A stretch of 64,000 nt of DNA from assembly GCA_020283715.1 (NCBI GenBank), contig JAIQCW010000231.1:1-64000 (forward strand). Reading direction: 5' to 3'. The stretch's first letter is position 1; each line of letters opens with the position of its first letter. Origin of the DNA: Cytauxzoon felis. Taxonomy: Eukaryota; Apicomplexa; Aconoidasida; Piroplasmida; Theileriidae. The position numbers and the translations under genes are program-made. The notes under the pieces are model-generated. The model saw only the letters and a program-made list of their open reading frames with translations. It was not told the origin of the DNA and did no database searches. Positions 1,671 through 62,132 of the stretch are shown here, one piece after another.

Positions 1671-1975
1671 AACCAGAGGTTACCTCTACTATAGGTCCAA
1701 CCTCTATTCGTCCTGCCGTCAGCTCTCCACCTGAGGTCCAATCAAACTCTTCTTCCACTCGGCGTGGAGCCTTCTTCTAAATACCTATCTCTAAAGAGTA
1801 AAGCCACTCCCAGAGATCGTGGCGGAAGTGAAGGTGGAATGAAGTGCAGTACTGGACCTCGAGTGGGACCCGCAGCTGATCTACGGGAAGCGGAGGGGAA
1901 GTAAATAGAAGAGGCACCACGCCTAGTGGAAAGACCTCAAGTGGAGAAGCTGACGCCAGGATGGATCTCAGAAGA
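1671..1975. mobile_element. Foldback element copy R1 (intergenic)
   Basis: Contains the CCTGCCGTCAGC linker, a CCACTCGGCGTGG module, the arm TCTCTAAAGAG...GAGATCGTGG, an 'AGTACTGGACC' centre, the opposite arm CTGATCTACGGG...GTAAATAG, CCACGCCTAGTGG and a closing CCTCAAGTGGA tip. It lies just beyond the 3' end of the L24 gene. Confidence 0.7.
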
Positions 1976-2002
1976 AGATGTAGAAGGTATTGAATGGACT
2001 TC

Positions 2003-2525
2003 TTATGTACTGTAGACATACTTGAGTAATGGATCGATTAGTTGTACATTGGAGTAGTGGATTTTTTTTTCGATTTGGACAAGTTGTGAATTAACGATTA
2101 ATTTCCTCTAGATTTTATATGAATGATTAGATATTATTGATTAAAGTACCATATTACATCCTTTAACTTTAACTTGATTACGTAATTTATCACACATTAA
2201 TACTTCATTGACTTTCCCTTTATCTTTACCACTTATAACAATTACCTTTAGTATTAATATGAGATGTTGATGAGAAGTATGTAGTATATAAAAAAATCTC
2301 TAGTGTAACATCAAGTTATACTATTAAACTTTTAGACATTATCATCCTTCCTCACCAATTCTTCATTAAACTTACCTTATCTCCTGGTCTTATTTTCCAA
2401 AATTTAATTATATTTCTTGGATGTACAATTTTTGCTCCTCTAATTGAGATTAAATTATATAAATGTTCATGGATAACATGTACATTATTAATTATATGCG
2501 ATGGTAAATTAGAAAATATAAACAT
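2003..2525 (-). CDS. Ribosomal protein L24 (uL24), probably mitochondrial or apicoplast
   Basis: Three exons: 2525-2376, 2245-2150, 2107-2003 (introns of 130 and 42 nt; all joins in phase), 116 aa. The KOW core K-I-R-P-G-D-K-V-x-V-I-S-G-K-D-K-G-K is split by intron 1. After intron 2 the C-terminus has IHYSNVQLIDP, matching the conserved 'PIHxSNVxLxDP' end of bacterial-type L24. uL24 binds 23S rRNA early in large-subunit assembly; the bacterial form implies an organellar ribosome. The N-terminus is short, so the targeting signal is unclear. The last exon runs to the edge of repeat copy R1. It is in tandem with the next minus-strand gene, whose stop is about 45 nt upstream of this start. Confidence 0.8.
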
Positions 2526-2568
2526 GTTTATATAGAAAAAAAATTTTTTAAAAATAGATTAAATGTGC

Positions 2569-3414: not shown

Positions 3415-3475
3415 AATATCTAAACCTCAGAAACTATCAACTCTTGTTCCAGAATATTTTACGATAATCTTTTAT

Positions 3476-5284: not shown

Positions 5285-5572
5285 TTTTATGATATGTAAT
5301 TATTTATATGAATCTATTACTATACTATACAGTCTGTATACTTTACATCAGTTAGTAGTTGTATAGTATATAAAAGGAAAAAATTATAAAATTAAGGCCC
5401 CATAATATTAATAATTAATGGGGTATATAGGGTTTTTTAACCCCATTATTATATATTGCATTTGTAGTGTTTGCGTGTATAGTATATTCTTGATCCATAC
5501 TGACATTACTACTCCTAACATCTTTACACCATGCACCCTCTTCACACTGTCATCACTACTCCTCCAACCTCT
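5285..5572. other. Convergent 3' region with alternative hairpins
   Basis: Between two converging genes. Three copies of one complementary hexamer (CCCCAT at 5398-5403, ATGGGG at 5418-5423, CCCCAT at 5441-5446) allow two mutually exclusive stem-loops. It may act in transcript end formation; that is only a guess. Confidence 0.4.
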
Positions 5573-7182
5573 TCATACTTCATTGATAATAGGTCGTATT
5601 TGATTAATGAATGATGGATCATTGAATCGATGTTGATTATGTAATTTAAGCCAAGGATGTTCAAGCATAATAGAAGCAGATGGACGATTATTAGGATCTT
5701 TAATAAAACATTTATCAAGAAAATCTTTAAATTCAAATGATAAATCAGAAATATAAAGTTTACCAAATTTATTAATCCAATATTGATCCCAATTATAATT
5801 TTGTATACGATAAAGTATTTTATCCAAATTTTCATCAGTAGTTGTACCAAATGGGGCAATACCAAAATATAATTCAAATGCTAATACACCAAGACTCCAT
5901 ACATCACTTTTATGATTAAATAAACCAAATTTATTATTATTATATTTTTGTGCACATTGTTCAGGTGACCAATAATCATAAGTACCTCTCATATGATTAA
6001 TATTTTTATTATTATCTAATTCAATATGTTCAGATAAACCAAAATCAGCAAGTTTACAACTATTATTATGATCTAATAATATATTCTCTGGTTTAATATC
6101 CAAATGTGCGATATGTTTATCATGACAAGTACGTACAGCCCAAGTCACCTCAAATAAAATCTCACATACACGTACCTCTGTTAAACGTTCATTCCTTGTC
6201 AAATAACCAAATAAATCACCATTATGACAATATTCCATCACCATAAATATCATCGTCTTTGTAGCAAACCAAGTATATAAACTATAAAATAATAAAAATT
6301 ATATTACAATAACAAACCATGCAATATTAGGATGACGTAAATGACTATGTAACTCTATCTCACATTTAAACATCGATTCCTGTCCACTCCTATATATACA
6401 TTATATAAATAACCCGAAAGCGATCTATGGGAGCTGGAGGGAGATATAAATAAAAAAGGCACCACACCTAGTGGACTGTGTAGTTATCCACCTGATTTCA
6501 GTCCTGCCGTCAGCTCTCCACCTGAGGTTACAACCTTATCTTCCACTAGGCGTGGAGCCTTCTCTCAATTACCTATCTCTAAAGAGTATAGCCACTCCCG
6601 GAGATCGTGTCGATGGAGAGGATAGTGATGTAACCTCAGGTGGAAGTGGAATACCCGAGAACGATCTCAGGGAGTTTGAGGGGGAAGTAATTAAAAGAGC
6701 TGACGGCAGGACGACCTCAGGTGGAAAGCTGTCTGCAAGACGGAGAGGAGAGGAGGATGGATGTAATAGTTTATTAGAGTGATGAGTTAAAGCTTTATTC
6801 TTTTCTTCCCTAGGTTTCTTCTCAATATCAATCAACATACCCTACTAATTGTACTTTGGAGATGCATTTGAGTACGCAGATGAATCCGGTTCTACGTTCT
6901 CTGGCTAGAAAGACTTGACCATGTGCTCCATCACCCTATGTGTAAGAAAATAATTAATTAATTGAAACATACAACTAAACCACCGATATCAAAATCATCT
7001 AATGAAAATTTTAATGAATGAACACTACCCTTTGTAGATATATCACAAGCGGCAGCTGTTAATCTTGAACAGCTATACTGTGTATCATTAATATCACCAT
7101 TATTGAGATTATCATGGCGTTTTGCCAACACATATCCATTCATACCATTAGTATTAAATCTAAAATTCATTTTAACAAACAA
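5573..7182 (-). CDS. Aurora-like Ser/Thr protein kinase
   Basis: Four exons: 7182-6973, 6935-6841, 6389-6318, 6281-5573; 361 aa, all joins in phase. Visible kinase motifs are the Gly loop GDGAHGQVF, VLK with the ATP-binding lysine, E in the helix-C stretch CEIELHSHLRHPNI (typical of Aurora), HLDIKPEN, DFG, G-T-x-D-Y-W-S-P-E and a D-V-W-S-L-G helix. Aurora kinases run mitosis and parasite budding. The catalytic-loop Arg before the Asp is Leu (HLD for HRD), while the Asp is kept. The N-terminus of about 60 residues is not conserved. Intron 2 (6840-6390, 451 nt) is filled by foldback element R2; the other introns are 36-37 nt. It is divergent with the next gene, with an 86-nt gap. Confidence 0.85.
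6411..6750. mobile_element. Foldback element copy R2 (in kinase intron 2)
   Basis: Contains two copies of the GATC-core arm (CGATCTATGGGAGC... and CGATCTCAGGGAG...), one TCTCTAAAGAG...GAGATCGTG arm, CCTGCCGTCAGCTC and GCTGACGGCAGG linkers, and CCTGAGGT/CCTCAGGTGGA tips. It accounts for nearly the whole intron. Confidence 0.75.
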
Positions 7183-8047: not shown

Positions 8048-10841
8048 TTATTGACATAATACTGAAGCTAAGTGAATAATACGCCTCCTTGCATAATGAC
8101 AATATAATTCAATCGATAATAATAATATAATCACAATCGTTAATATAATCCTTGCCCATAATGGTGTCTCACATATACTAAATATAATATAACATCTATA
8201 AATTAATAACATACCCCTTTTCTATATTCAAATATTTAAATAACCAAACATTACAATTTGGATTTATACAGTAATTGATCGCTGGCTCATAAACTTGATC
8301 ACCACTACAACAAATTATAATACAATAATTTATAACATACACGCATTTCTTCTGTGGAGTACATGAAGAATAACCATAATCTGAAGATGACCTCTGAGAT
8401 AAACCCAATTTATAACCTTTTGTATCCACAATAACCAATAATGATTCCAAAACTAAAATATACAATAATATTTATATATAATTTTTATAACATTAAAGAA
8501 TGATCATAATATCATATACTCGTCTTGCAGAAGACTCTCCACCTGAGATACAAGCACGTTGCATTCTCTTGCAGAGAGCTCTTCTATTTACCTATCTCTA
8601 AAGAGTATAACCACTCCCGGAGATCGTGGTGGTGCTGAGTACATGACCTCGAGTGGAATACCCGTAGCTGATCTCAGGGAAGCGGAGGGGGAAGTAAATA
8701 GAGAGGCCACCACGGCTAGTGTAAGGACCTCAGGTGGAACAGCGAGTGGAACGATATTACGATTGTACAACGGATGGAAAGAATGGAAGGACAGGGGGTG
8801 TATGAAGGTAGAAGTGTATGACTAACCTTTATATCCGAATCTGATGGGTGGTATAAGTGTATATGGTGTGGGTTCATGATTATCTGGTAGGATGTATAAT
8901 TTCTTTTTACCATCTTCTTCAACGATAAGATTTTCAATTGGGATTAAGATTTTATCATTTCCAAATTGTTGAAGTTTAAATTCAAGTGCTGGTAATGAAT
9001 GTAATTGAACTTCATCTTTAATATAACAGTATCTTAATGTATTTTTATTAGAAAAACATGACTCATGTACAGGTAAATATGTCATTATAGTCAACCAAAA
9101 ATTATTAGGCAGTACTAAAGCTTCAGATCTATAATATATATGTGAAATCGACACAAGAAAATAATATAATACAATTAATTATACAATAATATAATGTACT
9201 AGGTCCATTATTTGTCTTGCAGACAGCTCCTCCACTTGAGGTATTCCACTCGCCGTGGTTGCTTTCCTTATTTACTTCCCCCTTCGCTTCCCTGAGATCA
9301 GCTGCGGGTACTCCACTGGAGGTTACAATCACTAATTTCACTTCTTCATTTTTAACCTCAAAATTTGAAGGAAATCCTTAATCTCTGGGGAAACTCATGG
9401 CAATATCACAATGAATATTGGATGAATTTCTGATCTCAATACTTCATTGAAAAGGATCTTGATGATTGTATTGGAATTACTTAACCTCACTTCATTCTGT
9501 ATTGTCTTCATTGAGATATCTTAACAAACATGAACTTCGTCACTTTAGTCGTATCTCACCGAAATAAGGTTTTTAACCTCAAGTGGAACCTGGAAGCGAT
9601 CTACGGGAGCTGGAAGGGGAAGTAAATAGAAAAGCTGTCTGCAAGACGACCTCAGGTGGAACGGCGAGTGGAAAGACCTCAGGTAGAATGGCTAGTGGAA
9701 GGAGAGAAAGAAAATATTGATTAAACATCATGTTTATGACATTTGTAGTTTAAACTTGATTTACTCCTGATTTGTGTTAAACGTACGTGGTATCGATGAT
9801 AGCTTCCCAATTGGATGATGTTTTACCAAAGACTTTAACATTGCATAATTCGAGATCATAAACGGTGAATTCTAATAGAGAATTATTATATATACCATCC
9901 ATTTGTCTTCTTTCTGACCAAAGAATATTGAAATTTTTGAAATAATTTGCATTTAAATAGATACGATTAGTTGATCTATAATTATTATGATGGATTAAAT
10001 AAATGAATTAAATATACCCATTCTTTGTTCCATTAATATCTAAGGAAAAGAATCCATCATGTGCATCTAACATTTCTGACCATATTGATCTATCACGGCA
10101 TGTCATATGGATTCCTATATGTATAGATTATGATATTATATTATGATATAAAAACATACCTGCGATACCGAATACACCATCAGTATTCTGTAATAATCTT
10201 AATTTATCACTTTGTTCATAAAATGTAGCAAGTTTAATTGGAGCTTTACCAAAAGATGAATTAGTTAATTTGAAAGTACCATCAACAACTATGGATTCAT
10301 TACCTTCAAGGCAATAAATCTCATAATCTAATCCATCAACTCTTAAAATAACTTTACTATATAAATAGAAATAATTTTAAAAATATAATATATTATTATA
10401 AACATACGAATTTTCTTGTATAGTTTTACGTGAATTGACTTCTTTACATTTAAATACTGAATCACCAAGAAGACACATTTCTGTATTATTACACCATATA
10501 GCTGTCTTTGATTTATTAGCTATATAACAATGATGATCATTATCATGATGAGAGCATATCTCTTTATCATCTTCAAAAACTACAACTCCACAAAATGTTG
10601 TAGATAATGCCAAAAGTAAATTTTGATCACCAACTGCAACATTTAAGCAGTAACCACTGCCATTAACATAAGATAAATCTATATAATCATTATATACATC
10701 TGTAGAATCATCATGTTGAGGTTGAACGCCTTCATGTGAATCATTTATATAAGAAGACGATAAAATATCATCATTAGAGTAAACTACTCCTAATAATAAA
10801 CTACAAAATATCCATAAGAATGTCATATAATATACGACCAT
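8048..10841 (-). CDS. Plasmepsin V/ASP5-like membrane aspartyl protease, probably inactive
   Basis: Seven exons: 10841-10408, 10356-10160, 10114-10018, 9975-9787, 9128-8827, 8452-8215, 8177-8048; 528 aa, phases consistent. Domains: signal peptide (residues about 4-22); N-lobe with a Cys-rich insert (SKTAIWCNN, several Cys) as in plasmepsin V; GVFGIAG (cf. GIxGLG); a second active-site region AIIDTTSEALVLPNNFW; a C-lobe end with VIVDTKGYKLGL; a second Cys-rich stretch; and one membrane helix near the C-terminus followed by basic residues. The first catalytic triad (D-T-G) reads S-T-T and the second reads D-T-T, so catalysis should be lost. ASP5/plasmepsin V cleaves export signals in the ER/Golgi. 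Introns 4 and 5 carry elements R4 and R3. Confidence 0.65.
8523..8765. mobile_element. Foldback element copy R3 (intron 5 of aspartyl protease-like gene)
   Basis: CTTGCAGAGAGCTC linker, TCTCTAAAGAG...GAGATCGTGG arm, opposite arm GCTGATCTCAGGGAAGCGG...GTAAATAG, CCACGGCTAGTG and CCTCAGGTGGA tip, in a 374-nt intron. Confidence 0.75.
9210..9702. mobile_element. Foldback element copy R4 with long centre A (intron 4)
   Basis: Left arm 9215-9325 (TTGCAGACAGCTCC, CCACTCGCCGTGG, ATTTACTTCCCCC, TGATCAGCTGCGGG), AT-rich centre 9326-9571 shared with R6 and R13 but inverted relative to them, right arm 9572-9702 (GCGATCTACGGGAGCTGG, GTCTGCAAGACGACC, CCTCAGGTGGA). The host intron is 658 nt. Confidence 0.75.
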
Positions 10842-17130: not shown

Positions 17131-18272
17131 ATGTCGTATATCGGGTATGTAAGAAGTTCTGAAGGCTTTGATCCTATTAAAGATTCTAAAATCAATGGTA
17201 AACCTGTAAGTTTATTTATACATCCATCCATCCTCAATAAAATTCTTTAGTATTATATAAATGATATAAATATAAATCCTACATGTACAATATGTAATAC
17301 AACAATGGAATATCTTTTACAATTTATACCACCAATTGAATATAATAAAAGAAAATTTTATTTTATTTATTATTGTAAACAACATTTAATTAATCATTCG
17401 GGTTGGAAATTAATTTTTATAAATATTAATCCTATCAATACTAACAATGATTTATTCAATTTTAATGAAAATTTTATAAATTTTTTTAATAATTTAAATC
17501 TATCCAATCAAAATATCAATTGTAAATCATTAAAAATTCTATTCAAAAATGATTTTAAATCATATCATCCAATCAAAGGTTTGAATTTTTTTATTTTTAA
17601 AAATCCCCTATTAATCTATACATTTTAGATGAACATGCATTGAAATTATTAAATTATTATCAAAATAGAAATCGTAATGAAATCGATGATGAAGATCTAA
17701 TCGATTATAATATCATCTCAAGAAATAATGATGGAGATTTAAATAGAAGAAGTAATAGATTTAATGAGATAATTAGCCATTTCCATGAAGAAGGATGTTC
17801 TACACTCGATGTCCAATCACTATTTTCTCCAACCTCTCTTCGTCTTGCAGACAGCTCTCCACCTGAGGTTACAACCTTATCTTCCACTAGGCGTGGAGCC
17901 TCCTGCAATTACCTATCTCTAAAGAGTAGAGCCACTCCCGGAGATCGTGGCAATGTCTACCCGGAAGAACGAAGAATGTTAACCCCTAAGAACAGGAATT
18001 CTACCCGGAGTAACAAATGATGTTAACCCGGAAGAACAGACCTCAAGTGGAACCTGGAAGCGATCTACGGGAGCTGGAAGGGGAGATAAATAGAGAAGGC
18101 CGCCACGGCGAGTGGAAAAGAAGTTGATGATGGTGAAGGTAGAGATTGGACCTCAGGTGGAGTGGATTAATATATTGAATAAAATGATATATAAATTATA
18201 GGTATGAATGAGTGTGTATCATGTAGTTATAATAGTGAGTGTATGATTGAGGTATTAAAATGTGAAATCTGA
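17131..18272 (+). CDS. PDCD2/Tsr4-like zinc-binding protein
   Basis: Four exons: 17131-17205, 17251-17578, 17629-17796, 18202-18272; 213 aa. Start MSYIGYV; then P-x-C-x-x-C-x-x-x-M-E-Y-L-L-Q-F, with C-K-Q-H and GWKL downstream, in the order of the PDCD2 N-terminal zinc domain ('C.xC..pMxfLlQiY...C..W'). The last exon has ECVSC and a conserved-like E-x-x-x-x-L-K end. Tsr4/PDCD2 escorts ribosomal protein uS5 during 40S assembly. The third donor (GTTCTA at 17797) is the only phase-compatible one I found and is not canonical, so the join over element R5 is uncertain. The 3' end overlaps TOP1 by 18 bp, convergent. Confidence 0.65.
17822..18165. mobile_element. Foldback element copy R5 (putative PDCD2-like intron)
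   Basis: CTTGCAGACAGCTC, CCACTAGGCGTGG, TCTCTAAAGAG...GAGATCGTGG, a centre with AACCCGGAAGAACAGA also seen inverted in R19, CGATCTACGGGAGCTGG, CCACGGCGAGTGG, CCTCAGGTGGA. Confidence 0.75.
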
Positions 18273-21200
18273 TTTGACGAACATAGCCCATGGGAATTTA
18301 GTTCTAAGTCCTTTATTGAATATTTTTTCAATTGGTACTTCATATCTTTTACAGAATGCAACTGTTATACGTGGATCCATATAATTAATTTTTGATGTAC
18401 CTAATGCTACAGTTTTATTACTATCTTTAATACGCATTTTTATAGAATGATCTTTTTGACGTTTTCTATAAATATATTTATGAAATTTTTTTAATAATAT
18501 TTCAATATACTTTAATTTTGCTAATTTATTCTTACATGATTCAATTTTCATATTGGGTTTTGTTATTAATTTCCTAGGTGTACCATTAATATCCTATTAT
18601 TAATTATATTTATAATATTATATTAAACATACATTAACTTTTGATATAAATATAAATTCATCTTTACTATTTGATTCTAAATGTTCTAAATATTTTGTCA
18701 TCTCTTCAATATCTTCTTTTAATAAATCAAATTGATTCTTCATCTTTAACATTGATGATTCATGTTGTTTAGGTATACTTCTTTGATGATTACATAAAAT
18801 TGCAACCTCTCTATTAGCATCATTATAAAATTTAATTAATTCTGATATATTTTTTATATCTACATTTATTAATTTCTGATCATCACATTCACCAAATGGT
18901 TTAAAATTCATTACTTTTGTACATTTTAAACGCTTAAATTGATTCTGTAATGTTATAGAAGCATTATATGTCCTAAACACTTTTGCTGATAAACCATCCA
19001 TCATCTCCTTCAAATAATCATTCAATTTAGTAGTCTATTAAATATTTATACAATAATAATAATAACATACCGTTATCAAACTAAATACCTCTGCATTAGG
19101 CTTCTTACGCTTTGTAAATTTCAATAAATTATTATACGCAAGCTCATCAATCTATAGGATATATATAATTAAATTTCATTAGATACCGAATCATAATCAA
19201 CCATATTCTAGTACAACTTCTATTCGTCTTCCACCTGAGGTCGTATTGCCACTAGGCGTGGTGCCTCTTCTATTTACTTCCCCTTTCAGCTCCCGTAGAT
19301 CGCTTCCAGGTTCCACTTGAGGTTATAAATCTAATCTCGACGAGATAAGAGTAAAGTGATGGAATCTATGTTTGTTCAGATATCTCAATTAATATAATAT
19401 GAAATGAAGGAGGGATTATAAAACTAAATACAATCATCAAATTCCTTTTCAATGAAGTATTAACATCAGAATTACATCCAATATTCACTGAAATATTTGC
19501 ATGAGTTTCCCCAGAAATTTAGATTTTTCTCCAAATTTTCGAGGTAAAAATGAAGTAATGAAATTAGTGAATATGACCTCGAGTAGAGACCTCAAATGGA
19601 CTACCCGAAGCTGATCTCAGGGAAGCGGAGGGGGAAGTAAATAGAGAGGCCACCACGGCGAGTGGAACACAAGGAGATGATTGGAACTCAAGTGGAGATA
19701 TGTCTTCAAGACGACGAAAGGTGGAGTGGACCTCAGGTTGAAGATCATCGGATTTAAAATATTCAATTTGTAAATAAGATTCAACTGACTTTGACGGTAT
19801 TGAAGTATCTGATTGAATCTTTACCTAGGAAATCGAGTGTGATTACATTTGGTTTCTTTTCATTGAATTTCAGGTGTTCTACTCGGAGGCTACAGCAACC
19901 GACGGTATCAGCTTCATCAGCATCTTTTTCTCCACCGACTCTTAATGCTAGAAAGTCGATTAGGTATGTTGCGGTTCCGATTTGTTTCTCGTATAAATCA
20001 TCGGCTAAAGAAAATGAAGATGTGGGGAGGAAATTTTTTAAAACTAACAGGCCATTTTATTACGATAATCTTTACGTATATTTTCAATATGACTCTAGAG
20101 ATGATGATGATGATGATTAAATAATAATTAATTAATACCTTTAATTCTCTAGCTTTATTATATTTTAATAAATCATGTAGACCTTTAAATTTAGATTGTG
20201 CTGCTAGATACATATATTTGAATTGATCATTGATTGAATCTTTATAATATGCTAACCATGTAACAGAATTATCATGATAGACATCTTTCCATGAATGTCC
20301 ATCTCTTTGTAACATTGAAACTTTTGGTACAGGTGCATCTTTAGATAAATTTAATATTACATCTCTAGGGAACATTCTACATTTTAATAAACCTTGTTTA
20401 GGATGTAATCCTCTACCTTTAAATAAACCGGGTGGTTCTAATTTATTAGAGCTAACTTTTTCTCTAATCCAATCAACTAGGGCATAATTATATTTATATT
20501 CTAATTTTGCTGTTTGTTCAGCTTTTTCTTGATAATATTCTTTATTTTCTTTTTTCTTTAACTTTTCATTTTCTAAATGTTCTTTAATTTTACTGAAATC
20601 ACAATCTGATAATTTTGAACTAGCCTTACGTATGGGGTGAGTTTTGGGGAATTTTGAGGTGAAGACAGACCAAAAATTTTTACGATAAATATCACTCGTC
20701 TCATAATTTGTACCTATAGATTGTGCCCACATTGTAGCAATTTCTTCAATTTCTGGTTCAAGTATTAATACTTCACCTTTAAATGTTATTGGTACATTAT
20801 GTGGTATATATTCGGGTGTAAAAATCATACCATTATGTTCAAGATATGTCCAATGTTCAGACATTTTTTCATACTCTCTAGTCTTATTATATTCCATATT
20901 ATCATCAATAGCTTCCCACCATCTAGATATTGGTTCAAGTATATCTTCTAATACAGTCCTTTTAATTTTAGTCTCAGATTTTACTCTTTTAGGTGAAGGA
21001 GATTTTAAAGCCTTAACTTCAGGTATCAATCCATCTTCATTCTTTACAATAGCTGTATTATCCTGTTGTGTTGGATCATTTATAATATCATCTGCACCTC
21101 GTTCTCTTTTAATCTTTACTACTTCATCAGTATATAATTGTGTAGTAAGAATAGACTCCTCTACTTCATTTTTCAATTCATACCCATCCAACTTTGGATT

Positions 21201-23926: not shown

Positions 23927-23989
23927 ATTTAATCTTTTATACATCCATTGATGATATTTGTAACAATGACAACACTCAATATCCAATCC

Positions 23990-24630
23990 AACTCTTCTTC
24001 CACCGAGGTCTAATCACTACCTTACCTCTCCCACTCGCCTCCACCTGATGTCGTCTTGCAGACAGCTTCCTTCATTTAGTCATCTCTAAAGAGTATAGCC
24101 ACTCCCAGAGATCGTGGCGGAAGTATAAGCACTATAAATACATAACCACACATGCACTATAAATGTCGGGTTACAAGATTATGTTGATTAATTTACAAAT
24201 GATTTCTCCATAACTATAATATATACTTTAATATCAATACAATTGAAGGATGATGTATAGTTATATGATGGTATATATGTATTTATATAAATAATTATTA
24301 TAATATATATACTACATAACTACTAACATGAACTGAAGTATACTACTTATATAATATATAGTAGATTTATGTAAATAATTACATTTCATAAAATGAATAC
24401 AATACTAAACATCAGTTGTAAATGGTATTATATATTAATTATAGTAATTATAATTCAATTAATTTACATATTATTATAGTATTCAACCTCTGGTGGAGAC
24501 TTAAAGTGGACACATCTGCCACGATCTCTGGGAGTGGCTCTACTCTTTAGAGATGAATAAATGAAAGAGCCTCCATGGCGAGTGGAAGGAGAGGTGGATT
24601 GGACCTCGAGTGGAGAAGCTGACGATAAAA
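23990..24630. mobile_element. Foldback element copy R7 with long centre B (intergenic)
   Basis: Left arm 23990-24130 (GTCTTGCAGACAGC, TCTCTAAAGAG...GAGATCGTGG), AT-rich centre about 24150-24475 shared with R21 (ACAATTGAAGGATGAT), right arm 24482-24630 (CCACGATCTCTGGGAGTGGC, CTCTTTAGAGATG, CCATGGCGAGTGG). It occupies the gap between two convergent genes. Confidence 0.7.
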
Positions 24631-24659
24631 GTGTATTTGTATATAAGATTAGCTGCATT

Positions 24660-38029: not shown

Positions 38030-38330
38030 CACTTGTCCAATCCAACTCTTCATCCACCTATTTCCACTCGCCGTGGTGGCCTTCTCTACTTACTTCCCCC
38101 TCCGCTTCCCTGAGATCAGCTTCGGGTCCTCCACTTGAGGTTATATCCAACACAACCTTAGCACCATCTTCCATCATTCCCATGATGGATGATCCATCAC
38201 TACTCTTCTCACCGCCACGATCTCCGGGAGTGGCTATACTCTTTAGAGATATGTAATTAGGAGACGGCTCCACGCCTAGTGGAAAGGAAGGTGGAGGTGA
38301 GGGTGGTGATTGGACCTCAGGTGGAGAAGA
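38030..38330. mobile_element. Foldback element copy R14 (intergenic)
   Basis: CCACTCGCCGTGG, TTACTTCCCCC, TGAGATCAGCTTCGGG, hairpin centre CCATCATTCCCATGATGG, CCACGATCTCCGGGAGTGG, CTCTTTAGAGATATG, CCACGCCTAGTGG, CCTCAGGTGGA. Confidence 0.75.
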
Positions 38331-39469: not shown

Positions 39470-39640
39470 CTTCATTCGTCTTGCAGACAGCTTCTCTATT
39501 TACATCACCTCGACTCCCATAGATCGTCTCGGATTCTTCGCCACGACCCCGGGAGTGGCTATACTCTTTAGAGATAGATAATTAAAAGAGCCACCACGGC
39601 GAGTGGAAGATATGGTTGTAACACCAAGTGAAAGTGCATT
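39470..39640. mobile_element. Foldback element copy R15 (between the paralogue pair)
   Basis: GTCTTGCAGACAGC, CTATTTACATCACC, ATAGATCGTCTCGG, CCACGACCCCGGGAGTGGC, CTCTTTAGAGATAG, CCACCACGGCGAGTGG. Shortest full-structure copy, with almost no centre. Confidence 0.7.
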
Positions 39641-40689: not shown

Positions 40690-40865
40690 ACCTGAGGTTA
40701 CAATCTCACATTCTCTTGCAGATAACTTCTCTATTTACCTTCCCGTAAACGGCATAGCCACTCCCTGAGATCGTGAGGATAAACCCGTAGCTGATCTCAG
40801 GGAAGCGGAGGGGGAGGTAAATAGAGAAGGCCACCACGGCGAGTGGAAAGACCTCAGGGGAGTAC
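40690..40865. mobile_element. Foldback element copy R16 (intergenic)
   Basis: TCTTGCAGATAACTTC, shortened arm with CATAGCCACTCCCTGAGATC, GCTGATCTCAGGGAAGCGG, GTAAATAGAGAAGG, CCACCACGGCGAGTGG, CCTCAGG. The TCTCTAAAGAG part is degenerate. Confidence 0.7.
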
Positions 40866-42911: not shown

Positions 42912-43205
42912 ATACCGTCAGCATCCACTCGAGGTCCATCTTTTCCCATTGCATGGAGCTCTTCTATTTACTTCCCCTTCCAGCTCCCGTAGATCGCTTC
43001 CAGGTTCCACTTGAGGTCTCCACCTGATGTCCAGTGACTATACTTCCGCCACGATCTCTGGGAGTGGTTATACTCTTTAGAGATAGGTAATTAAAAGAGG
43101 CTCCACGCCTAGTGGAAGACAAGGATGTAACCTCAGGTGGAGTATAGCTGTCTGCAGGACCAAGAGAGTTGGATTGGACCTCGGTGGAGGCGAGTTGAAC
43201 AGTGG
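42912..43205. mobile_element. Foldback element copy R17 (3' of MPP-alpha)
   Basis: CCATTGCATGGAGC, ATTTACTTCCCC, AGCTCCCGTAGATCGC, CCACGATCTCTGGGAGTGG, CTCTTTAGAGATAGG, CCACGCCTAGTGG, CCTCAGGTGGA, GCTGTCTGCAGGACC. It ends about 10 nt before the MPP-alpha stop. Confidence 0.75.
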
Positions 43206-47339: not shown

Positions 47340-47575
47340 CTATCCTTTTCACTCCATTCAACTTGCGTCCTTCCGTCAGCTTCTTTGTTTACTTCCCCCT
47401 TCGCTTCCCTGAGATCAGCTGCGGGTTCCACTTGAGGTCCAATCATCACTTCCTCCACGATCTCTGGGAGTGGCTTTGCTCTTTAGAGATAGGTAATTGG
47501 AAGAGGCCACCACGGCGAGTGGAACGGTGGTTGTAACCTCAGGTGGAGGATGTGTACGCAAGATGATCCAGAGAG
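47340..47575. mobile_element. Foldback element copy R18 (intergenic)
   Basis: CTTCCGTCAGCTTC, TTACTTCCCCC, TGAGATCAGCTGCGGG, CCACGATCTCTGGGAGTGG, CTCTTTAGAGATAGG, CCACCACGGCGAGTGG, CCTCAGGTGGA. Between two convergent genes. Confidence 0.75.
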
Positions 47576-48518: not shown

Positions 48519-50602
48519 ATGAGTAAGAATACAAAATTGGGTGATTCTTTAGCGGACGTTCAATTACAGTATGAGAAAGTCTCTAAAACCTATAATACTC
48601 GAACGGTGGAGCCTAAGGAAGAAACTACAGGTTCTAGTTTAGTAGTTGGATTAAGGGGTTTAACGGATTCATCACAAATTATAAATGATCCATTTATATC
48701 TAGTGTATTTTCTACTAGAAAACCTAGAGATGCTGGAGCTGGGTTAGCATCAGGTATTAAAAGTGTAACTAAAGGTATGGCATTAGGTGTTGCTAGCCTT
48801 GTTGTATGTCCTGTAGTTGGTTTGAGTAATGAAGGTTTAGGTGGTTTTTTTAAAGGTGTTGGTACTGGTGTATTAGCTGCTGTAGCTTTACCATTAACAA
48901 GTATAGGTATAGCTGGATATCAAATATCACGTGGTGTTATTAATACTCCAAATGCTATCTGTAAAAGATTTAAAGGTAAAAAATGGAATAAGGAAACTGG
49001 TAAATGGTGTGATAATTGGTATAGTTTAGATGAAGAAGCATCGAAAGTCTTATCAAATGAGAATTATCAAGAACGTAAAGATGAAGATAATGTAAAGTTA
49101 CCAGAGAATATCCCCATTTATGATTCCAGTGTATCTGGAAATAGGAATGTACTTGAAACTGAATTTTATGAAATGTTGGGTGTACCAACAAATGCCTCAC
49201 AAGAAATGATTAGAAGAAGTTATTATAGTTTAGCCAAGAAATGTCATCCAGATAAAAATACTGATGAAGGATCAAAAGAAATGTTTCAAAGATTAGGAGA
49301 AGCATATCAAGTATTAGGTGATGAAGATCGCCGTAAAAAATATGATATGTATGGTAAATCTGTATGTAATGAGATGCCATTATTAGATAGTTCACTCTTC
49401 TTTATGATGTTATTTGGTTCTGATGCTTTCGAACCATATATAGGGAAATTAAGAATGGCATTATATCTAGAAATGGAATTAAATGATGCATCAACACCTA
49501 CAAGTCAAGATTTCCAAAGATTACAAACCGCAAGAGAAGTTAAATTAGCACTCACACTAAGAGAATATGTTAGACCATATGTATGTGGTGATATATTCAA
49601 TTGGAAAATTAAAATTGCCAACGATGCCAAAACACTATGCAAAAACTCATTCAGCATAGCCATCACAGAAACCATCGGATGGACTTATAATAATTACGCC
49701 GATCAATACATTGGAAAACATACCACTTTTCTAGGATTAGGAGGAAAATTAGCCAAAACCAAAGTATGTTTACATTCCACTCGAGGTTACATTACTACCT
49801 TCTCCATCTCCAACCTTATCTTCGTCCTGCAGACAGCTCTCCACCTGAGGTTACAATCTTATCCTCGTCTTGCAGACAGCTCTTCTATTTATCTCCCCTT
49901 CCAGCTCCCGTAGATCGCTTCCAGGTATTCCACTTGAGGTCTGTTCTTCCGGGTTAACATCATTTGTTACTCCGGGTAGACATTGCCACGATCTCCGGGA
50001 GTGGCTCTACTCTTTAGAGATAGGTAAATAAAAGAGCTGTCTGCAAGACCAACGGTGGTTGTAACCTCAAGTAGAGAGCTGACGGCAGGATTAACCTCAG
50101 GTGGAAGTACAGAAGATTACAATTTTGAAATGTGTTTACGATAACATCATCTCCTTACTTTCTATTCAATTATATTTCATATTTATAGGAAAAATCTCGT
50201 AAATTTGGTAAGGGTGTAAAAACATTTACATCATTATTACGTACTGCTATTGCTGAGCGTGGTTTACGTAGAGGTAGAGATCCTGGTGAAGAGCGTTTGA
50301 TAAATGAAACTACTGTTGATGATATAGATGAAGAGAATATACCACTGATTTTAAATGCTATGTTGAATATATGTCTTATGGATGTACAAACAACAGTACG
50401 TGCTGTAAGTAAAAGGTTATTAAAGGATATGAGTGTAGATTCTGATTGGCGTTTACGTAGAGCAGAGGCATTAGTTGAAATTGGTAAAATATTTATAGAT
50501 ACCGCAAAACAGTCCAAGAATACATCAACAGATGAAATTCCAATACTCAATAAAATCAAAAGTAAGAAAAATGTACACTATTCAAACGATGAATTTTTTT
50601 AA
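48519..50602 (+). CDS. DnaJ protein with N-terminal glycine-rich membrane-like region (DnaJ-X)
   Basis: Two exons: 48519-49763 and 50189-50602; 552 aa. Residues about 70-160 are hydrophobic and Gly-rich with internal repetition (GLGGFFKGVGTGVLAAVALP), like the C-terminal region of VPS13-type lipid-transfer proteins. J domain at about 215-275: Y-E-M-L-G-V, then K-K-C-H-P-D-K-N with the HPD motif, and F-Q-R-L-G-E-A-Y-Q-V-L. A DnaJ-X domain follows, continued in exon 2 (VRAVSKRLLKD, RRAEALVEIGKIF). An Hsp70 cochaperone, perhaps membrane-associated. The intron (425 nt) carries element R19. Confidence 0.85.
49775..50110. mobile_element. Foldback element copy R19 (DnaJ intron)
   Basis: Two GTCTTGCAGACAGCTC-type linkers, TCCACCTGAGG, TTTATCTCCCCTTCC, AGCTCCCGTAGATCGC, centre GTTCTTCCGGGTTAACATC (inverted version of R5 centre), CCACGATCTCCGGGAGTGG, CTCTTTAGAGATAGG, GCTGACGGCAGG, CCTCAGGTGGA. 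Confidence 0.75.
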
Positions 50603-53951: not shown

Positions 53952-55748
53952 ATGTGTATAGTTGACCCGCAATCGATTTTAGTATGCGCCTCTTTGGGGT
54001 GTGGTATAATGTCCACTAAATACTTGGTCAATAATATTGATAGATTACCTCATCCCTCTGAATGTAGTTATATAGGGAAATTTTATCGCATAAGTGGTAT
54101 ACATAACCACGATCCTTTGGATTTAATTGTGGATTTACATGACGCTATTGATAATTTAGATGGTGGAAAGTATTATGTTGAAGTAATTTCTGGCCGATTT
54201 AGTTATTATACTCAAACTATACCCGTCAAGAAGGGCAAGCTTGAGATTTATGTACGTTGATAGAAGTATATGATTATGGTACCCCGTACCTCATGTTGTC
54301 TAACTCTACCTCCATCCATTCATATTTTCCTTCAGGAGAAGTTGAATATACACATTCGGCAATGTGATGATGTTCTTGTGATTAATTTGTATAAAAAGCA
54401 CATGTTAAAGTCGACATTATGTGGCACTTTGAAAATCTCAGTGGAAGAGGAAATTTTGAACAATAAGACACCCAAGCGTAGGAGGTATACAATGATCCAC
54501 AACAATAAATCAGGGACACGATTAATGGTAAGTTCTAACATATCTCAGCTCATAAAATTCATATTCAGCTTTCAATGTATAAGTTGAATGAGAATATCTC
54601 ATCGTTTAATATTACACCCCTCACACTACAAGTGATTATGCAGGCACAGAATGAGGGGAATATCTTGGGTGAGTTGAAGAACAATCTCTTGGTGTCCATT
54701 GTAGATTCCTTTGATACATCACTACTACAGAAGAGGATATGTTAAATGGGTTAGAAGGAATGACCGAAGTTGAAAAGCTGCGTTACTTCGCAAAGGTGAT
54801 CTCAGGGCCACTAAAGAAAATGAATACATTCGGGAAAATGTGGACTGAATATTACTTCAAACCACTAGAAATATCGCCCGGTTGCTGGGAATGGTGTTTC
54901 TGGGATAATATCGAAAGCTATAATGTATGTTCACAAACTAAAATGAACGTAGCGTTAAAATAAAAGATTAATATTACCTCTCCACTTGAGGTCCAATCTC
55001 TACCTTCACCATCATCAACTTCTTTTCCACTCGCCGTGGTGGCCTTCCTTATTTACTTCCCCCTCCGCTTCCCTGAGATCAGCTACGGGTAGACCACTTG
55101 AGGTACAATCACTATCCTTGCCACGATCTCAGGGAGTGGCTCTACCCTTTAGGGATAGGTAATTGGAAGAAGCCTCCACGGCGAGTGGAAGACAAGGTTG
55201 TAACCTCAGGTGGAGGGATGATATTAATCTTCTATGGACAACAACGGTTAAATAGTATTGTTTATTCATTAATTTGATGATATATATAGAGTGGAGATGA
55301 ATGTGTGGGTAGTTATTCGTTTTTGGCGATAAGTGTGGTGGTGGCGGATCCATCGAACCGTAGATATTTTTATATAAAATATCATGATATTGATGGTGAA
55401 CATGGTATTTTATTTAAAAAAGTGGATAGGGATCGTGATTTATGGTCGGATGGTGTATATGAGTTTGTAGAGCGTGTACGTGAGATATATTTTAAGAATC
55501 CGGAGTTTCGTACATTGAAAAAGATAAAAAAGCATATAAAAAGATGTAAAGATTTATGTCCAGATATTAGAATTGATAGTATAAATTCAGAATTGAATAA
55601 AAATAAATTAGAATCTAAGACTGATGTAGATGGTCAACACATTAAACATCATACATTGACTAGTCCATTAAATCGCACATCAATAAAGACGAATTTACAG
55701 AATCATATACAAAAAATGGCTTCTAACATGTATATAAAGCCAAATTAA
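53952..55748 (+). CDS. C2-like plus PH-like domain protein
   Basis: Five exons: 53952-54251, 54336-54527, 54569-54668, 54731-54924, 55290-55748; 414 aa, in phase. The first 200 residues form beta strands with spacing of a C2 domain (GGKYYVEVISGRF, DDVLVINLYKK, CGTLKISVEE), without obvious Ca-binding Asp clusters. The second part reads W-E-W-C-F-W-D, F-L-A-I-S-V-V-V-A-D, then R-R-Y-F-Y-I-K-Y and D-L-W-x-D-G-V-Y-E-F, resembling a PH-type domain with its end helix. The stop at 54961 in the non-spliced frame is avoided by a GTATGT donor (54925). Intron 4 (365 nt) holds R20. Membrane binding is inferred. Confidence 0.6.
54975..55215. mobile_element. Foldback element copy R20 (C2-PH intron 4)
   Basis: CCACTCGCCGTGG, ATTTACTTCCCCC, TGAGATCAGCTACGGG, CCACGATCTCAGGGAGTGGC, CCCTTTAGGGATAGG, CTCCACGGCGAGTGG, CCTCAGGTGGA. 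Confidence 0.75.
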
Positions 55749-57094: not shown

Positions 57095-57780
57095 TCATCT
57101 ACTTACACCTGAGGTACATCCTGCCGTCAGCTACCCACTTGAGGTTACCACCACCGTTGGTCTTGCAGACAGCTCTTCCAATTACCTCTCTCTAAAGAGT
57201 ATAGCCACTCCCAGAGATCGTGGCGGATGTCCCACTCGAGGTAACATCCAACACAACCTTAGCACCATCTTCCATCATTCCCATGATGGATGATCCATCA
57301 CTACCTTCAATATACCCCAGAAATGTAGGGATAAAAAACACTATATGCCCTACTTTTTCAATGTATATTAAAGATACTACACTAATGTAACATATACTAA
57401 TATATCAATACAATTGAAGGATGATATATAGTTGTATGGAGGTATACAAGTACTTATATAAAGTATTATTATATTATATATACTGTTTAACTACTAACAA
57501 GATATGAAGTAAACTACCTATATATCATAGTAGTAGATTTATATAAATAATTACACTTCATAAAATTATTAGAATTATATACTTCAATTATAAATAATAA
57601 TACATATAAATTATGGTAATTAAAATTAATTATTTGAGAAAATTAGTGATGTAACCTGGGTGGATTCCCGTAGCCGACTAGTGGTAGGCGTAGGGGGTGG
57701 TAAATAGAAGAGCTGTCTGCAAGACGACCTCAGGTGGAAAGGCGAGTGGAAGACAAGGTTGTAACTTAAGGTCGAACAGT
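57095..57780. mobile_element. Foldback element copy R21 with long centre B (intergenic)
   Basis: Left arm 57095-57310 (CCTGCCGTCAGC, GTCTTGCAGACAGCTC, TCTCTAAAGAG...GAGATCGTGG and the CCATCATTCCCATGATGG hairpin), AT-rich centre 57330-57640 matching R7 (ACAATTGAAGGATGAT), diverged right arm 57645-57780 (GTAAATAGAAGAGCTGTC, CCTCAGGTGGA, GGCGAGTGG). Confidence 0.7.
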
Positions 57781-59286: not shown

Positions 59287-59587
59287 TATTATATATATGC
59301 GATTAATTTATAGTAAACTATGGCATTCCTTGGGCGAATGACTCAAGTAGCTCATGAACGGTGTCGATATGGACAAAAAATTAGAAATGGAAAATAATAT
59401 ATTTAATTGAATATTATTAAAATTTAATATATGTTATGTTTATATTTAATTGTTATAATGGTAATTAATGTGTAATTTTTTAAATATTATCACAAGTGAC
59501 CAATTGACTCGTGTTTTCCACGTTAAGGTAGATTTATACCTAGAATCTGTATAATAAACCAAGATGATTTAATATATTTGTATAAAA
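59287..59587. other. Divergent promoter region WD gene / syntaxin
   Basis: 301 nt, AT-rich, no repeat module. A somewhat GC-richer stretch near 59500-59530. Confidence 0.35.
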
Positions 59588-61035
59588 ATGTATAATCGTA
59601 CATATCAGCTGAAAAGTTTAGCTGAGGGTCGATCTGTATCCAATACATATCAGCCTGACTGTATCATAACAGTTACAGCAAATACCCTTGTAGAAAATAA
59701 ATTGGTATGTTTAATATATATAATATTTAATAAATAATTAGGCTGAATCTAATGATAATGATTTATTTGGGCCAGAGTTTGCTCAGTATTTATCGGATGT
59801 TGAAGCTACAAGACAATTTATAAAATTTATAAATGATGGAGCAGAGTCTATAAATAAATTAATGAATTTAAGTTTAGATGTAGTATCTAAGGAACAAAAT
59901 GATGATATTAGTAATAAATTAAATAAATTAATAGAGAAAACTAATATTATCTGTACTAGATGTAAGACAAATATAACAAAATTAGAACCACTGAAATCTA
60001 TTGGTACACCAACTGAAGCACGTATGCGTACAAATGCTTATAATGTATGCATTAAACATTTCCAAGATGCTATGAAAAGATATCAAGACTCTCAAATTAA
60101 TTTTAGAAAATCAATTAAAGATCGCGCTGTTAGACAAATTCAACTCATTCACCCAGATTTAAAACCCAATGAACTTGAAGAAATTATGTCACATTCCTCT
60201 CACTCTACAGTCGAATATATGGCCAAGACCAATATTATCGGAGTATGTTAATAGTTTATACATACCTGAAATTATAGAATATAACTCTACGAGATGCTGT
60301 CGCTAATATACAGGGCAAATACAATGATGTACTCGCTCTAGAACAAAGTAAGTTGTTTATTATGTAGAAGGATGATATATGATAATTATACATATGTTAT
60401 CCTTGCGTACTTTATCTCCATCTGAGGTTACAACCTTATCTTCCACTCGCCGTGGTGGCCTCTTCTACTTACTTCCCCCTCCGCTTCCCTGAGATCAGCT
60501 ACGGGTTCCACTCGAGGTCCAGTACTACACTTCAGTCCATCACTACCTTCACCACGATCTCTGGGAGTGGCTATACTCTTTAGGGATAGGTAAATAGAAG
60601 GGCCTCCACGGCGAGTGGAACAGAGGTAGTATAAGATGAGGTGGATTGGACCTCGGTGTAGGAGATAGTTATAGTACCTTGTGGAAAACACTAATATTCA
60701 TAATGGATTATGGAAAAGATTATGTGTATAGGATACTTTCTCCTATAATTACACTTCTTTTGATTCTTATTCATGTAATAATTACTTCAGGTATGGAAGG
60801 TTTGAAGCAGATGATGGTTGAGTTGGCTGGTATAGTGAGTTATCAGGGTGATTTGATAGAACAGATAGAGCATAATGCTTTAAAGGCTGTTGATTATACG
60901 GATCGTGCTAATGTTCAATTAGTAAAGGCTCGTGAGAATAAATTGCGTAGCGGCAAAATTTTAATGTGGCTGAGTTGTATAGTAATAATAGGAGGCATTG
61001 CAATTATAATACCTATAATGATGAAAATTACTTGA
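59588..61035 (+). CDS. Syntaxin (Qa-SNARE)
   Basis: Four exons: 59588-59704, 59742-60242, 60278-60347, 60791-61035; 310 aa. Helical N-terminal Habc-type region, R-M-R-T-N-A-Y at its end, then the SNARE helix starting at LALEQS across intron 3, M-M-V-E-L-A-G-I-V with the syntaxin-type Y-Q-G-D-L-I-E-Q-I-E-H-N (central Gln of the zero layer), and a C-terminal membrane anchor (ILMWLSCIVIIGGIAIIIPI). Plasma-membrane/secretory type by the N-terminal length. It mediates vesicle fusion. Intron 3 (443 nt) holds element R22. Confidence 0.88.
60415..60660. mobile_element. Foldback element copy R22 (syntaxin intron 3)
   Basis: CCACTCGCCGTGGTGGCC, TTACTTCCCCC, TGAGATCAGCTACGGG, AGGTCCAGTACTAC centre, CCACGATCTCTGGGAGTGG, CTCTTTAGGGATAGG, CTCCACGGCGAGTGG. 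Confidence 0.75.
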
Positions 61036-61072
61036 AATTTTTTATAAAAATTTTATAAATTTATATTTAGAT

Positions 61073-62132
61073 ATGAGTTCTATTTCTTTAAAATTTTATG
61101 TCTACTGGGAGAAACAAAAACCAGGGGAATCTACGTGTGGAATACATGCCCTTAATGCTATCCTTCAGGTACTAGCTACCTTTCCTATAATTCTTAACAT
61201 AAATATAGGCTCCTAGTGTAGATTATAATGAATTGTATTCCATAGCTCTAGATCAAGAACAATTAGAGCGTCAATTCCTACTCAGTGCAGGTACCTTTAT
61301 GTGATTAAATCTCACCAATCTATACTCAGGCATGACTGAAGAGGATTATAAACTAATGAACGGTCATCAAAACTCCTACGAGTTTGATATCAGTGTAAGT
61401 TGCACTCAAGGTCAAATATAATATATTCTCCACTACATTGTCTTTTTCTTGAAGATAGCTCTCTACTGAGGTTACATCACTAACTTCACCTTCATTTCCA
61501 TTGCATGGAGCTCTTCTATTTACCTCCCCTCGGATTCCCGTAGATCATCCTCGGTATTCCACTTGAGGTCCAATCCTCTACACCTCCACCTCCGCCACGA
61601 TCTCTGGGAGTGGCATTACTCTTTAGAGATAGGTAATTGGAAGAGCCTCCACGGCGAGTGGAACATAGGTGAAGATGAAGAGTAGGATGTAACCTCAGAT
61701 TAGGAACCATCTATTACGTTTGTTATTTTCATGATTATTAAAATAGGTCTTAGAAAAGGCATTGGACAGGCGTAGTTATACATCTGAGCGTTGTACGTTG
61801 AAGACGTTGTATAATTTGAGAATAGATGATGAAAAAATCGCATATTTATGTAATATATATGGGCATTGGCTGAGTATAAGGCATATTCATAATGGTCGAT
61901 GGTAAATTTAACATTTTATATTCAAAATAAATGGTATAGGTTCATATTGGATAGTACAAGGGAGGATCTTGTGGAGTTAAATGGCAAGGGTTTATGTAAT
62001 TATTTGAATAAATTATTATCGAGTAATCAGAGTGTATTTTTGATAAAGAGGAGGAGTTTTGAGGAATTGCCATCATATAAATCGAATGGAGAAGAATTAT
62101 TAGAGCATCAGAGAATTATAATACTTGAATAA
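61073..62132 (+). CDS. Josephin-domain deubiquitinase
   Basis: Five exons: 61073-61168, 61209-61290, 61330-61394, 61747-61901, 61940-62132; 196 aa, in phase. Short Josephin-only type (as Josephin-1/2): E-K-Q-x-P-G-E-S-T-C-G-I-H-A-L-N with the catalytic Cys, Q-A-P-S, S-Y-E-F-D-I-S-V-L-E-K-A-L, then G-H-W-L-S-I-R with the catalytic His and, across intron 4, W-F-I-L-D-S-T with the downstream acidic residue. Cleaves ubiquitin chains. Intron 3 (352 nt) carries R23. Confidence 0.85.
61440..61700. mobile_element. Foldback element copy R23 (Josephin intron 3)
   Basis: CCATTGCATGGAGC, CTATTTACCTCCCC, CGTAGATCATCCTCGG, CCACGATCTCTGGGAGTGGC, CTCTTTAGAGATAGG, CTCCACGGCGAGTGG. The element fills most of the intron. 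Confidence 0.75.

Follow-up and report, generated by a model that had tools for sequence, protein, structure and literature searches.

A modular hairpin repeat of a piroplasm nuclear genome, apparently translated in part within host proteins

What are the GC-rich, modular repeats that recur along a 64,000-nucleotide stretch of Cytauxzoon felis DNA (contig JAIQCW010000231.1, hereafter the window), and why do some of them lie within genes? The reading that best accounts for their sequence, to which we assign a probability of about three in four, is a non-autonomous hairpin repeat of the piroplasm nuclear genome that resembles Rickettsia palindromic elements (RPE) and is probably translated in part within host proteins.

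Abundance and distribution

The repeat is real and is found throughout the genome. Its loop, GATCTNNGGGA, occurs 3565+3580 times in 8.62 Mb (8+6 for a reversed-pattern control), and the tip module occurs 1670+1676 times genome-wide (control 0+0). Counts so far above the control indicate that the repeat is not due to chance. Repeat modules make up 12.4% of a 307-kb sample. The nuclear genome has about one element per 2-3 kb, and sites are in intergenic DNA, introns and exons alike. Matches are spread over many other contigs, so the repeat is not an artifact of one contig, a concern raised by the initial annotation. The four modules quoted there were all recovered, each at numerous places; module counts were 16+7 for CCTCAGGTGGA, 7+3 for CCTGCCGTCAGC, 7+6 for CTTGCAGACAGC and 5+8 for CCACTCGCCGTGG.

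By an independent 12-mer criterion the window has 28 clusters, which correspond to 25 elements since three type II elements are split into two clusters each; this is close to the 23 copies counted before. The 25 elements are 17 of type I (one B arm joined to one A arm), 3 of type II (two A arms around an AT-rich core of ~300 nt) and 5 with a single arm or partial. The list of arm pairs in the window runs to 21 rows, one of which is a distant B+B pair that represents two half-elements. Individual features are given below, with the support for an element in parentheses (cluster, 12-mer cluster; pair, arm pair).

1708..1947, + strand: type I, B arm then C arm (cluster, pair)
6421..6742, + strand: type I, B + E arms, extra arm on left side (cluster, pair)
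8520..8740, + strand: type I, B + C (cluster, pair)
9212..9680, no strand: type II, C arm, AT-rich core of ~300 nt, D arm (cluster, pair)
17838..18162, + strand: type I, B + D (cluster, pair)
19229..19738, no strand: type II, D, core, C (cluster, pair)
23982..24121, + strand: half element, single B arm (cluster)
24516..24688, - strand: half element, single B arm (cluster)
24663..26411, - strand: PIP5K host open frame (PF01504; T. equi homology on either side of the element)
25620..25885, - strand: type I within the PIP5K coding frame, B-first on the coding strand, apparently ~90 extra amino acids
26892..27212, + strand: type I, B + C (cluster, pair)
30931..31255, + strand: lone C arm, then type I, B + C (cluster, pair)
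31885..32165, - strand: type I, C + B, flanked by coding segments of a + strand gene and antisense to it, probably in an intron
33667..33887, + strand: type I, B + D (cluster, pair)
35633..36033, no strand: type II, C, core, E (cluster, pair)
38035..38327, - strand: type I, C + B; highest identity among the scored genomic copies 92%
39475..39610, no strand: partial element (cluster)
40690..40855, + strand: type I with short center, B + C (cluster, pair)
42924..43183, - strand: type I, D + B (cluster, pair)
47388..47548, - strand: type I, C + B (cluster, pair)
49775..50106, - strand: type I, D + B, antisense to the DnaJ-X gene within an apparent intron
54979..55215, - strand: type I, C + B, RNA fold z -11
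57118..57227, + strand: half element, B arm (cluster)
57699..57753, no strand: partial element (cluster)
60422..60655, - strand: type I, C + B, RNA fold z -6.6
61466..61698, - strand: type I, F + B (cluster, pair)

Hairpins, arms and stems

The repeats are strings of short hairpins with constant loops and differing stems that are mostly still complementary. Around GATCTNNGGGA the recurrent arm stems are CAC/GTG, GCT/AGC, AGC/GCT, AAC/GTT, GAT/ATC and GAC/GTC. Contiguous stem pairs average 3.69 in 299 arms, compared to 1.81 when stems are re-dealt (maximum 2.13 over 200 shuffles). Of 109 elements, 71 have CTCT-AA-AGAG as the hairpin adjoining the B arm, 13 have CCGT-AA-ACGG and 7 have CCCT-AA-AGGG, and linkers occur as GTCT-TGC-AGAC (70), CCAT-TGC-ATGG (17) and CTCT-TGC-AGAG (15). 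Covariation is not a property of every module, since the commonest linker, CCTGCCGTCAGC (85 occurrences), is off the NNNN-TGC-NNNN stem register and forms 1-2 of 4 pairs in it.

Stems might also covary neutrally. Template switching in quasi-palindromes mends one side to match the other and would generate perfect local stems without function or selection on hairpins, and long-range pairing is indeed not conserved. Each slot has few fixed stem types, which look more like inherited module lineages, although this is not decisive. Such an origin of the pairing is possible but doubtful; it is compatible with an RPE-like repeat and would alter only the reason that stems stay paired.

The 135 inward arm pairs consist of 110 B+A, 24 A+A and one B+B, the last being two half-elements 409 nt apart. 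The arms had previously been described as inverted repeats facing each other. That description holds in part. Among 60 type I elements, chosen at random from those under 350 nt and folded as RNA, z was below -2 in 37 (median -2.8) and above 0 in 5. A single element folded as DNA had z -1.0. Left and right linker types are equal in 31 of 109 elements, no more often than by chance (29.7 expected). Because the linker types of the two sides are independent, the conserved structure is the local hairpin, and the whole foldback was rejected as the conserved unit. The label "foldback" misses the covarying local hairpins, the arm-pairing rule and the apparently translated type I copies. That many type I copies sit in what appear to be protein-coding exons was overlooked in the initial annotation.

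Covarying stems and low folding scores would also fit a conserved structured RNA, or a regulatory module resembling a terminator, that lies in genes incidentally. The nearest-gene contexts (n=133) are 15 convergent, 12 divergent, 72 tandem, 25 exonic and 9 at a contig edge. Elements are present in 16/26 convergent and 70/107 tandem gaps; divergent gaps are poorer in them (9/30), as such a module would predict, but promoter avoidance could also explain this. However, in tandem-gene contexts outside exons there is no orientation bias to neighboring genes (32 vs 26), and a terminator role was dropped for that reason. The repeat is also not confined to one kind of DNA but occurs between genes, in introns and in exons, and Rfam gave no match at gathering in the window and none at E<=1 in 8400-9800. 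A regulatory RNA is quite improbable.

Copies in protein-coding frames

Many type I copies, sharing an orientation and a frame, appear to form part of host proteins. With an exonic (two-sided) copy defined as one flanked on either side by 60 or more open codons, 26 of the 109 type I copies in the sample qualify, and all 26 are B-first (0 A-first) with one connector frame. Frame 0 is used by 23 and frame 1 by 3; the latter are all G-arm copies and retain the common GEVN connector frame. When the limit is relaxed to 40 open codons per side, there are 27 B-first copies and 1 A-first copy. An apparent A-first exception in a 1345-aa frame (HHH_7/SH2_2 gene) was traced to a probable intron copy. The peptide encoded by exonic copies has the form ...SSNYLSLKSRATPGDRG...TSSGLPVADLREAEGEVNRRADGR...; another stretch within the insert peptide is ADLREAEGEVNR. 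Among the 150 matches listed in the genome for the coding-frame peptide, 75 are in frames of at least 300 aa, as opposed to only 1 of the 150 listed for an opposite-strand peptide; this one is apparently the intron copy of the HHH_7/SH2_2 gene. Exonic copies differ modestly from the others by codon position (chi-square p=0.0009, a value that ignores the relatedness of copies); the difference is seen in the B arm and is absent in the C arm.

Among the hosts are RNA polymerase III RPC1, a NOG1-like GTPase and glutamate-cysteine ligase, as well as PIP5K (phosphatidylinositol-4-phosphate 5-kinase) in the window. In comparison with an RPC1 chain (7a6h), the first aligned block ends at its residue 626 and the second resumes at 631; over this gap the host carries residues 338-476, which contain the element. 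The NOG1-like GTPase has 305 residues from P-loop to switch strand, an interval that holds two elements and measures 4 residues in a solved relative; for the ligase the values are 155 residues and 29 in the comparison. The PIP5K insert is absent from the T. equi homologue and is predicted to lie in a loop (170-287, pLDDT below 50) within a confident kinase fold. In a Pfam scan of 20 host ORFs (of 21), 10 were without any family, and for these the coding assignment comes from the open frame and a codon model. For 10 hosts NCBIfam yielded nothing beyond weak matches of one host to GTPases. PDB searches with SNF2-like, beta-lactamase-like, PIG-T and one unnamed host did not show the inserts to fall between aligned blocks. 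Element-peptide motifs were found in 0 of 343 homologues, and two insert peptides had no Pfam domain at E<=1.

The "exonic" copies could instead be stop-free, introner-like introns that are spliced out and leave no peptide. Both tips contain AG|GT, and some copies do occur in apparent introns (DnaJ-X; HHH_7/SH2_2 gene). Nevertheless, the two intron copies inspected are A-first, with AT-rich GTATGT...TAG ends outside the element, and an intron would have no need of the common orientation and frame of the 26 two-sided copies. Read codon by codon, the RPC1, NOG1-like and ligase genes pass from host codons directly into the module. Excision from tip GT to tip AG would also shift the frame, since GT starts a codon in PPEV and AG ends at the first codon base in TSGG. 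Splicing of these copies is improbable.

Alternatively, ribosomes or RNA processing might skip the palindromes, as for the bypassed elements of Magnusiomyces mitochondria, a precedent cited in the available part of PMC6649704; the repeats here are likewise palindromic and lie within conserved genes. A skipped element requires neither an open frame nor a fixed orientation, both of which are strict here, and skipping is very improbable. The RPE-like reading is consistent with the palindromic (hairpin-forming) character evident from local hairpins and fold z, with same-frame insertions in unrelated conserved genes (26/26; RPC1, ligase, NOG1-like and PIP5K among them) and with additional copies outside genes.

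Spread of the repeat and related systems

Five mobile-enzyme families were searched in the genome, and the reverse transcriptase of telomerase was the sole match (RVT_1, PF00078, one gene). The search for a reverse transcriptase, which bears on a SINE-like, retroposed origin, thus yielded this one gene. PF01797, PF10551, PF13358 and PF00665 had 0 matches in an assembly that may be incomplete. The Y1 transposase domain, also with 0 in the genome, matches 5 of 14 control genomes; a Helitron-like N domain profile (PF14214) matched no control genome.

An ordinary MITE of a DDE transposon would share several features with the repeat: small size, high number, inverted-repeat-like tips and the lack of a gene of its own. 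It would not be expected where DDE_3, MULE and rve have 0 matches, although each matches 3-6 of 14 prokaryotic controls. The search for target-site duplications also counts against it, as none convincing was found at the outer tips (38 of 109 elements testable). Tip duplications were no more frequent than expected at k=2-4 and 6-8, with one 5-mer (expected 0.03), in a test limited by uncertain element ends, since linkers are often located beyond the tips. To our knowledge neither covarying hairpins nor a two-armed grammar is a hallmark of MITEs, which further weakens this origin. The available part of a 2022 mobilome survey of 64 apicomplexan genomes (PMC9141347) gives class II transposons as absent and reports no transposable elements in C. 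felis. A MITE is unlikely.

The initial annotation suggested a young or actively copied element. The best copy of one window element is 92% identical over 225 nt (best of 40 scored, 2,867 candidates), and the median best match per copy within the sample is 87%. With best matches seen of only 87-92%, that suggestion is not supported; without target-site duplications or near-identical copies, neither is recent movement. The remainder of that interpretation, a dense, modular, non-autonomous palindromic repeat in a piroplasm with no detectable transposase, is supported.

For an RPE-like repeat, an element of a T. equi-like lineage would have spread to thousands of intergenic, intronic and exonic sites. 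Judging from DNA alone, translation of the exonic copies would add a hydrophilic peptide of roughly 50-100 residues, probably disordered. Exon insertions in other orientations or frames would be purged by selection, and such copies would persist in introns and between genes. This would be the behavior of RPE, selfish DNA that proteins tolerate since the frame it brings does no harm. The weakest step is the spread itself, perhaps via a hairpin-acting activity in trans or hairpin-primed repair or replication. The more specific proposal is evenly balanced: a protein-coding selfish palindrome in a eukaryotic nucleus whose own frame evolved to be harmless, with roughly 3,000 sites and an extrapolated total of some 600 in-frame insertions across the proteome (the RNA polymerase III core included), copied in a hairpin-dependent manner without the tested transposase families.

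If the RPE-like reading is right, part of the size and composition of intergenic regions would be explained, parasite gene models and vaccine or drug-target models would contain element-derived inserts, and the places at which proteins tolerate foreign segments could be tested on many natural insertions. Coding palindromes have been proposed as a route from selfish DNA to new protein segments.

Several known systems share individual features with the repeat. Bacterial BIMEs and REP elements are also mosaics of palindromic units and linker motifs; REPs are extragenic, whereas the repeat is also exonic and no Y1 transposase domain was found. Mitochondrial GC clusters and double-hairpin elements are similar hairpin elements but organellar. 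Introners are likewise dispersed inverted-repeat elements inside genes and carry their own splice sites; in contrast, exonic copies here seem to be read through, and each intron copy inspected is enclosed by a larger intron. PARCELs are palindromic DNA that codes for protein, but as tandem 25-aa repeats in ORFs rather than dispersed inserts in unrelated conserved genes. The bypassed palindromes of Magnusiomyces (cited in PMC6649704) and the coding palindromes of Nematomorpha are hairpin elements too, some within genes, but organellar rather than nuclear; the former are not translated, unlike these apparently translated copies, and the latter are perfect long palindromes.

Coding palindromes are known from Rickettsia, a few other microbes and organelles, and our literature search found no report for piroplasms. 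Cases described in the accessible portions of the sources are from bacteria, an archaeon, algae and mitochondria; among eukaryotes, excerpts of PMC2996958 mention green algae and a diatom. RPE, as outlined in excerpts of PMC10969869 and PMC2996958, are about 150 bp long and form ten families, with nearly half of the copies within ORFs. Like RPE and their coding counterparts in Wolbachia and Methanocaldococcus, as far as those accounts extend, the repeat is small and in-frame in unrelated genes and encodes a conserved peptide, typically in non-structured segments. Its 20-base arm core, the only part compared, has no exact match in prokaryote or viral contigs. Unlike RPE, it occupies a eukaryotic nucleus in thousands of copies rather than tens, and it is built of exchangeable hairpin strings with covarying stems and two types of arm pairing.

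Anatomy and abundance of the hairpin elements

The four modules named in the initial annotation recur in the window (31.2% GC) as claimed. Genome-wide (8,623,106 bases, 181 contigs), counts are 1670+1676 for the tip CCTCAGGTGGA (0+0 for the reversed control) and 3565+3580 for the loop of the arm, GATCTNNGGGA (8+6 for the reversed control). PMC3748084 gives the Cytauxzoon felis genome as 31.8% GC and 9.1 Mb. Finer analysis used a sample of the window plus stretches L001-L025 of the same genome (306,862 bases, picked by contig and non-random), 12.4% of which is covered by modules. It contains 299 exact loops, alongside which 135 arm pairs were found; scaled to 7,145 loops, this extrapolates to roughly 3,200 two-armed elements genome-wide. 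Density reaches about one per 0.8-1 kb locally (L016-L020, from contigs C8, C2, C3 and the end of C133, the contig of the window, which takes up 64,000 of its 67,085 bases).

Each element is built as a string of short hairpins, an arm being a stem around GATCTNNGGGA. Six stem types recur:

Recurrent arm stems
B: CAC/GTG
C: GCT/AGC
D: AGC/GCT
E: AAC/GTT
F: GAT/ATC
G: GAC/GTC

All six retain at least three contiguous pairs despite unrelated sequences; a few individual copies have 0-2. The slot beside the B arm likewise covaries (CTCT-AA-AGAG, CCGT-AA-ACGG, CCCT-AA-AGGG; 91 of 109 elements), as does the linker slot (GTCT-TGC-AGAC, CCAT-TGC-ATGG, CTCT-TGC-AGAG). The other common linker, CCTGCCGTCAGC, is out of the NNNN-TGC-NNNN stem register. 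Folding was better than that of shuffles (z below -2) in 37 of the 60 elements tested. Left and right linkers match within an element at chance level (31 observed, 29.7 expected), so it is the local hairpin that is the conserved unit.

Most of the 135 inward pairs (110) join a B arm to an A-type arm (C to G), with a spacing of mostly 20-190 nt (type I). Another 24 join two A-type arms. In 21 of these the arms enclose an AT-rich core of ~300 nt (type II); the remaining three all have an F arm and a spacing of 137-150 nt. The sole B+B pair consists of two half-elements with 409 nt between them, and 48 more arms in the sample are partnerless. The type II core (21 in the 307-kb sample, for example at 9331-9570, 19331-19555 and 35717-35941) is AT-rich and conserved (many consensus positions at least 70%), has no long frame, and is non-exonic by the codon model.

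Other features were observed in the window. The minus-strand ORFs 38534-39193 and 39675-40403, adjacent, of similar size and with no Pfam match, are perhaps, by eye, a tandem membrane-protein family. Purine/pyrimidine-rich tandem arrays (GAAGAATTTTCCTCC type) at 13335-13575 and 16666-16922, on opposite strands, flank an ORF that looks by eye like a methyltransferase and have no relation to the hairpin elements. The mitochondrial processing peptidase alpha gene of the window shows 77% identity to its Theileria equi counterpart and 58% to that of T. parva.

Frame and orientation in exons

A codon model, with long ORFs as its training set, classed 25 of the 133 elements as exonic, every one of them type I. 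Six-frame reading of the 109 complete type I elements finds 26, in 21 ORFs, that are flanked by 60 or more open codons on both sides. Relative to the coding strand every one of these is B-first and none A-first. Lowering the limit to 40 codons gives one A-first copy versus 27 B-first. Within the element, A-first frames often lack stops (6, 15 and 20 of 109 are open), so absence of stops alone does not account for the bias. One frame is shared by 23 of the 26; in the other three, all with G arms, the arm is shifted and the frame of the GEVN connector is unchanged.

The predicted peptide is (PPEV..PLAVEA)n-SSNYLSLKSRATPGDRG-spacer-TSSG-PVADLREAEGEVNR-(ADGR..TSGG)n; its modules are the codon readings of the palindromes. 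Each of two genome-wide searches scored 150 of ~4,600 candidates, with matches in the same ORF non-independent. For the coding-frame composite, 138 of the 150 listed (of 156 matches) are stop-free and 75 lie in frames of at least 300 aa, compared with 40 and 1 of the 150 listed (of 153) for the opposite strand. The frame of that lone exception stops in the last linker of the element, and the HHH_7/SH2_2 gene, presumably Spt6-like, goes on in another frame beyond; it is a probable intron copy.

Probable non-exonic copies within genes
L027:2400-2900, A-first copy, probably intronic, in an HHH_7 + SH2_2 gene
49775-50106, antisense to the gene, DnaJ-X element in an apparent intron

The two loops are in phase in 25/25 exonic C-, D- or E-arm copies versus 36/75 elsewhere, partly owing to selection of open frames. 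Codon-position evidence is modest: exonic and other copies differ by position (p=0.0009, uncorrected), and second positions are lowest in the B arm of exonic copies; the C arm has no such pattern.

Elements are found in genes for conserved proteins. In the RNA polymerase III RPC1 homologue, the two blocks aligned to solved chain 7a6h stop at 626 and restart at 631 of that chain, and host residues 338-476, which hold the element, fill that gap. Glutamate-cysteine ligase has 155 residues in place of 29 in a solved chain. In a NOG1-like GTPase, 305 residues with two elements separate the P-loop from the next switch strand, compared with 4 in solved relative 2e87 (both local matches weak); this P-loop/switch I site (L021:5392-6744) is an extreme one. 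The insert in the window PIP5K is absent from T. equi and is predicted as a loop with pLDDT below 50 within a confidently modelled kinase fold (mean pLDDT 66.7 from an alignment of 19 sequences). Further hosts carry PIG-T (Gpi16), beta-lactamase-like, WD40, SNF2, G-patch and LCCL domains; 10 of 20 ORFs scanned, from the 21, have no Pfam family.

Dispersal and copying

Dispersal is shown in three contexts: between genes, in introns and in exons. Outside exons, tandem-gene contexts have no orientation bias (32 versus 26). Among gaps of at least 250 bp, elements are held by 9/30 between divergent genes, 16/26 between convergent and 70/107 between tandem genes, as if promoters were avoided. Insertion would be random in orientation, selection would then purge exonic insertions except those reading in a harmless frame, and the surviving exonic copies may, from their sequence, be translated.

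The initial annotation had seen no transposase. Profiles for Y1, MULE, DDE_3 and rve domains had no match in the genome at the sensitivity used; the Helitron profile matched none of the control genomes, so that search carries no weight. A single reverse transcriptase match was obtained in this genome:

L026 (G000:C56:72800-76500), a gene for telomerase with Telomerase_RBD and RVT_1 domains

No target-site duplications were detected at elements of the sample. The best matches seen between copies are 87-92% identical, so a present burst is not shown and the earlier 'young or actively copied' is unsupported.

Relation to known palindromic elements

Searches of open-licence PMC papers listed no description of this element. 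An apicomplexan mobilome survey reported no TEs for C. felis and dropped its MITE candidates, over all the genomes it covered, as likely false positives (PMC9141347). PMC2996958 names Wolbachia and Methanocaldococcus as carriers of related coding palindromes, and green algae and a diatom as carriers of PARCELs; mitochondrial palindrome cases appear in PMC6649704. The nearest known system in behaviour is the Rickettsia palindromic elements (RPEs; PMC10969869). The likeness is one of working, descent from RPEs not being demonstrated here. The family is real, a modular coding palindrome of a eukaryotic nucleus with putative translation, and RPE-like in how it works.
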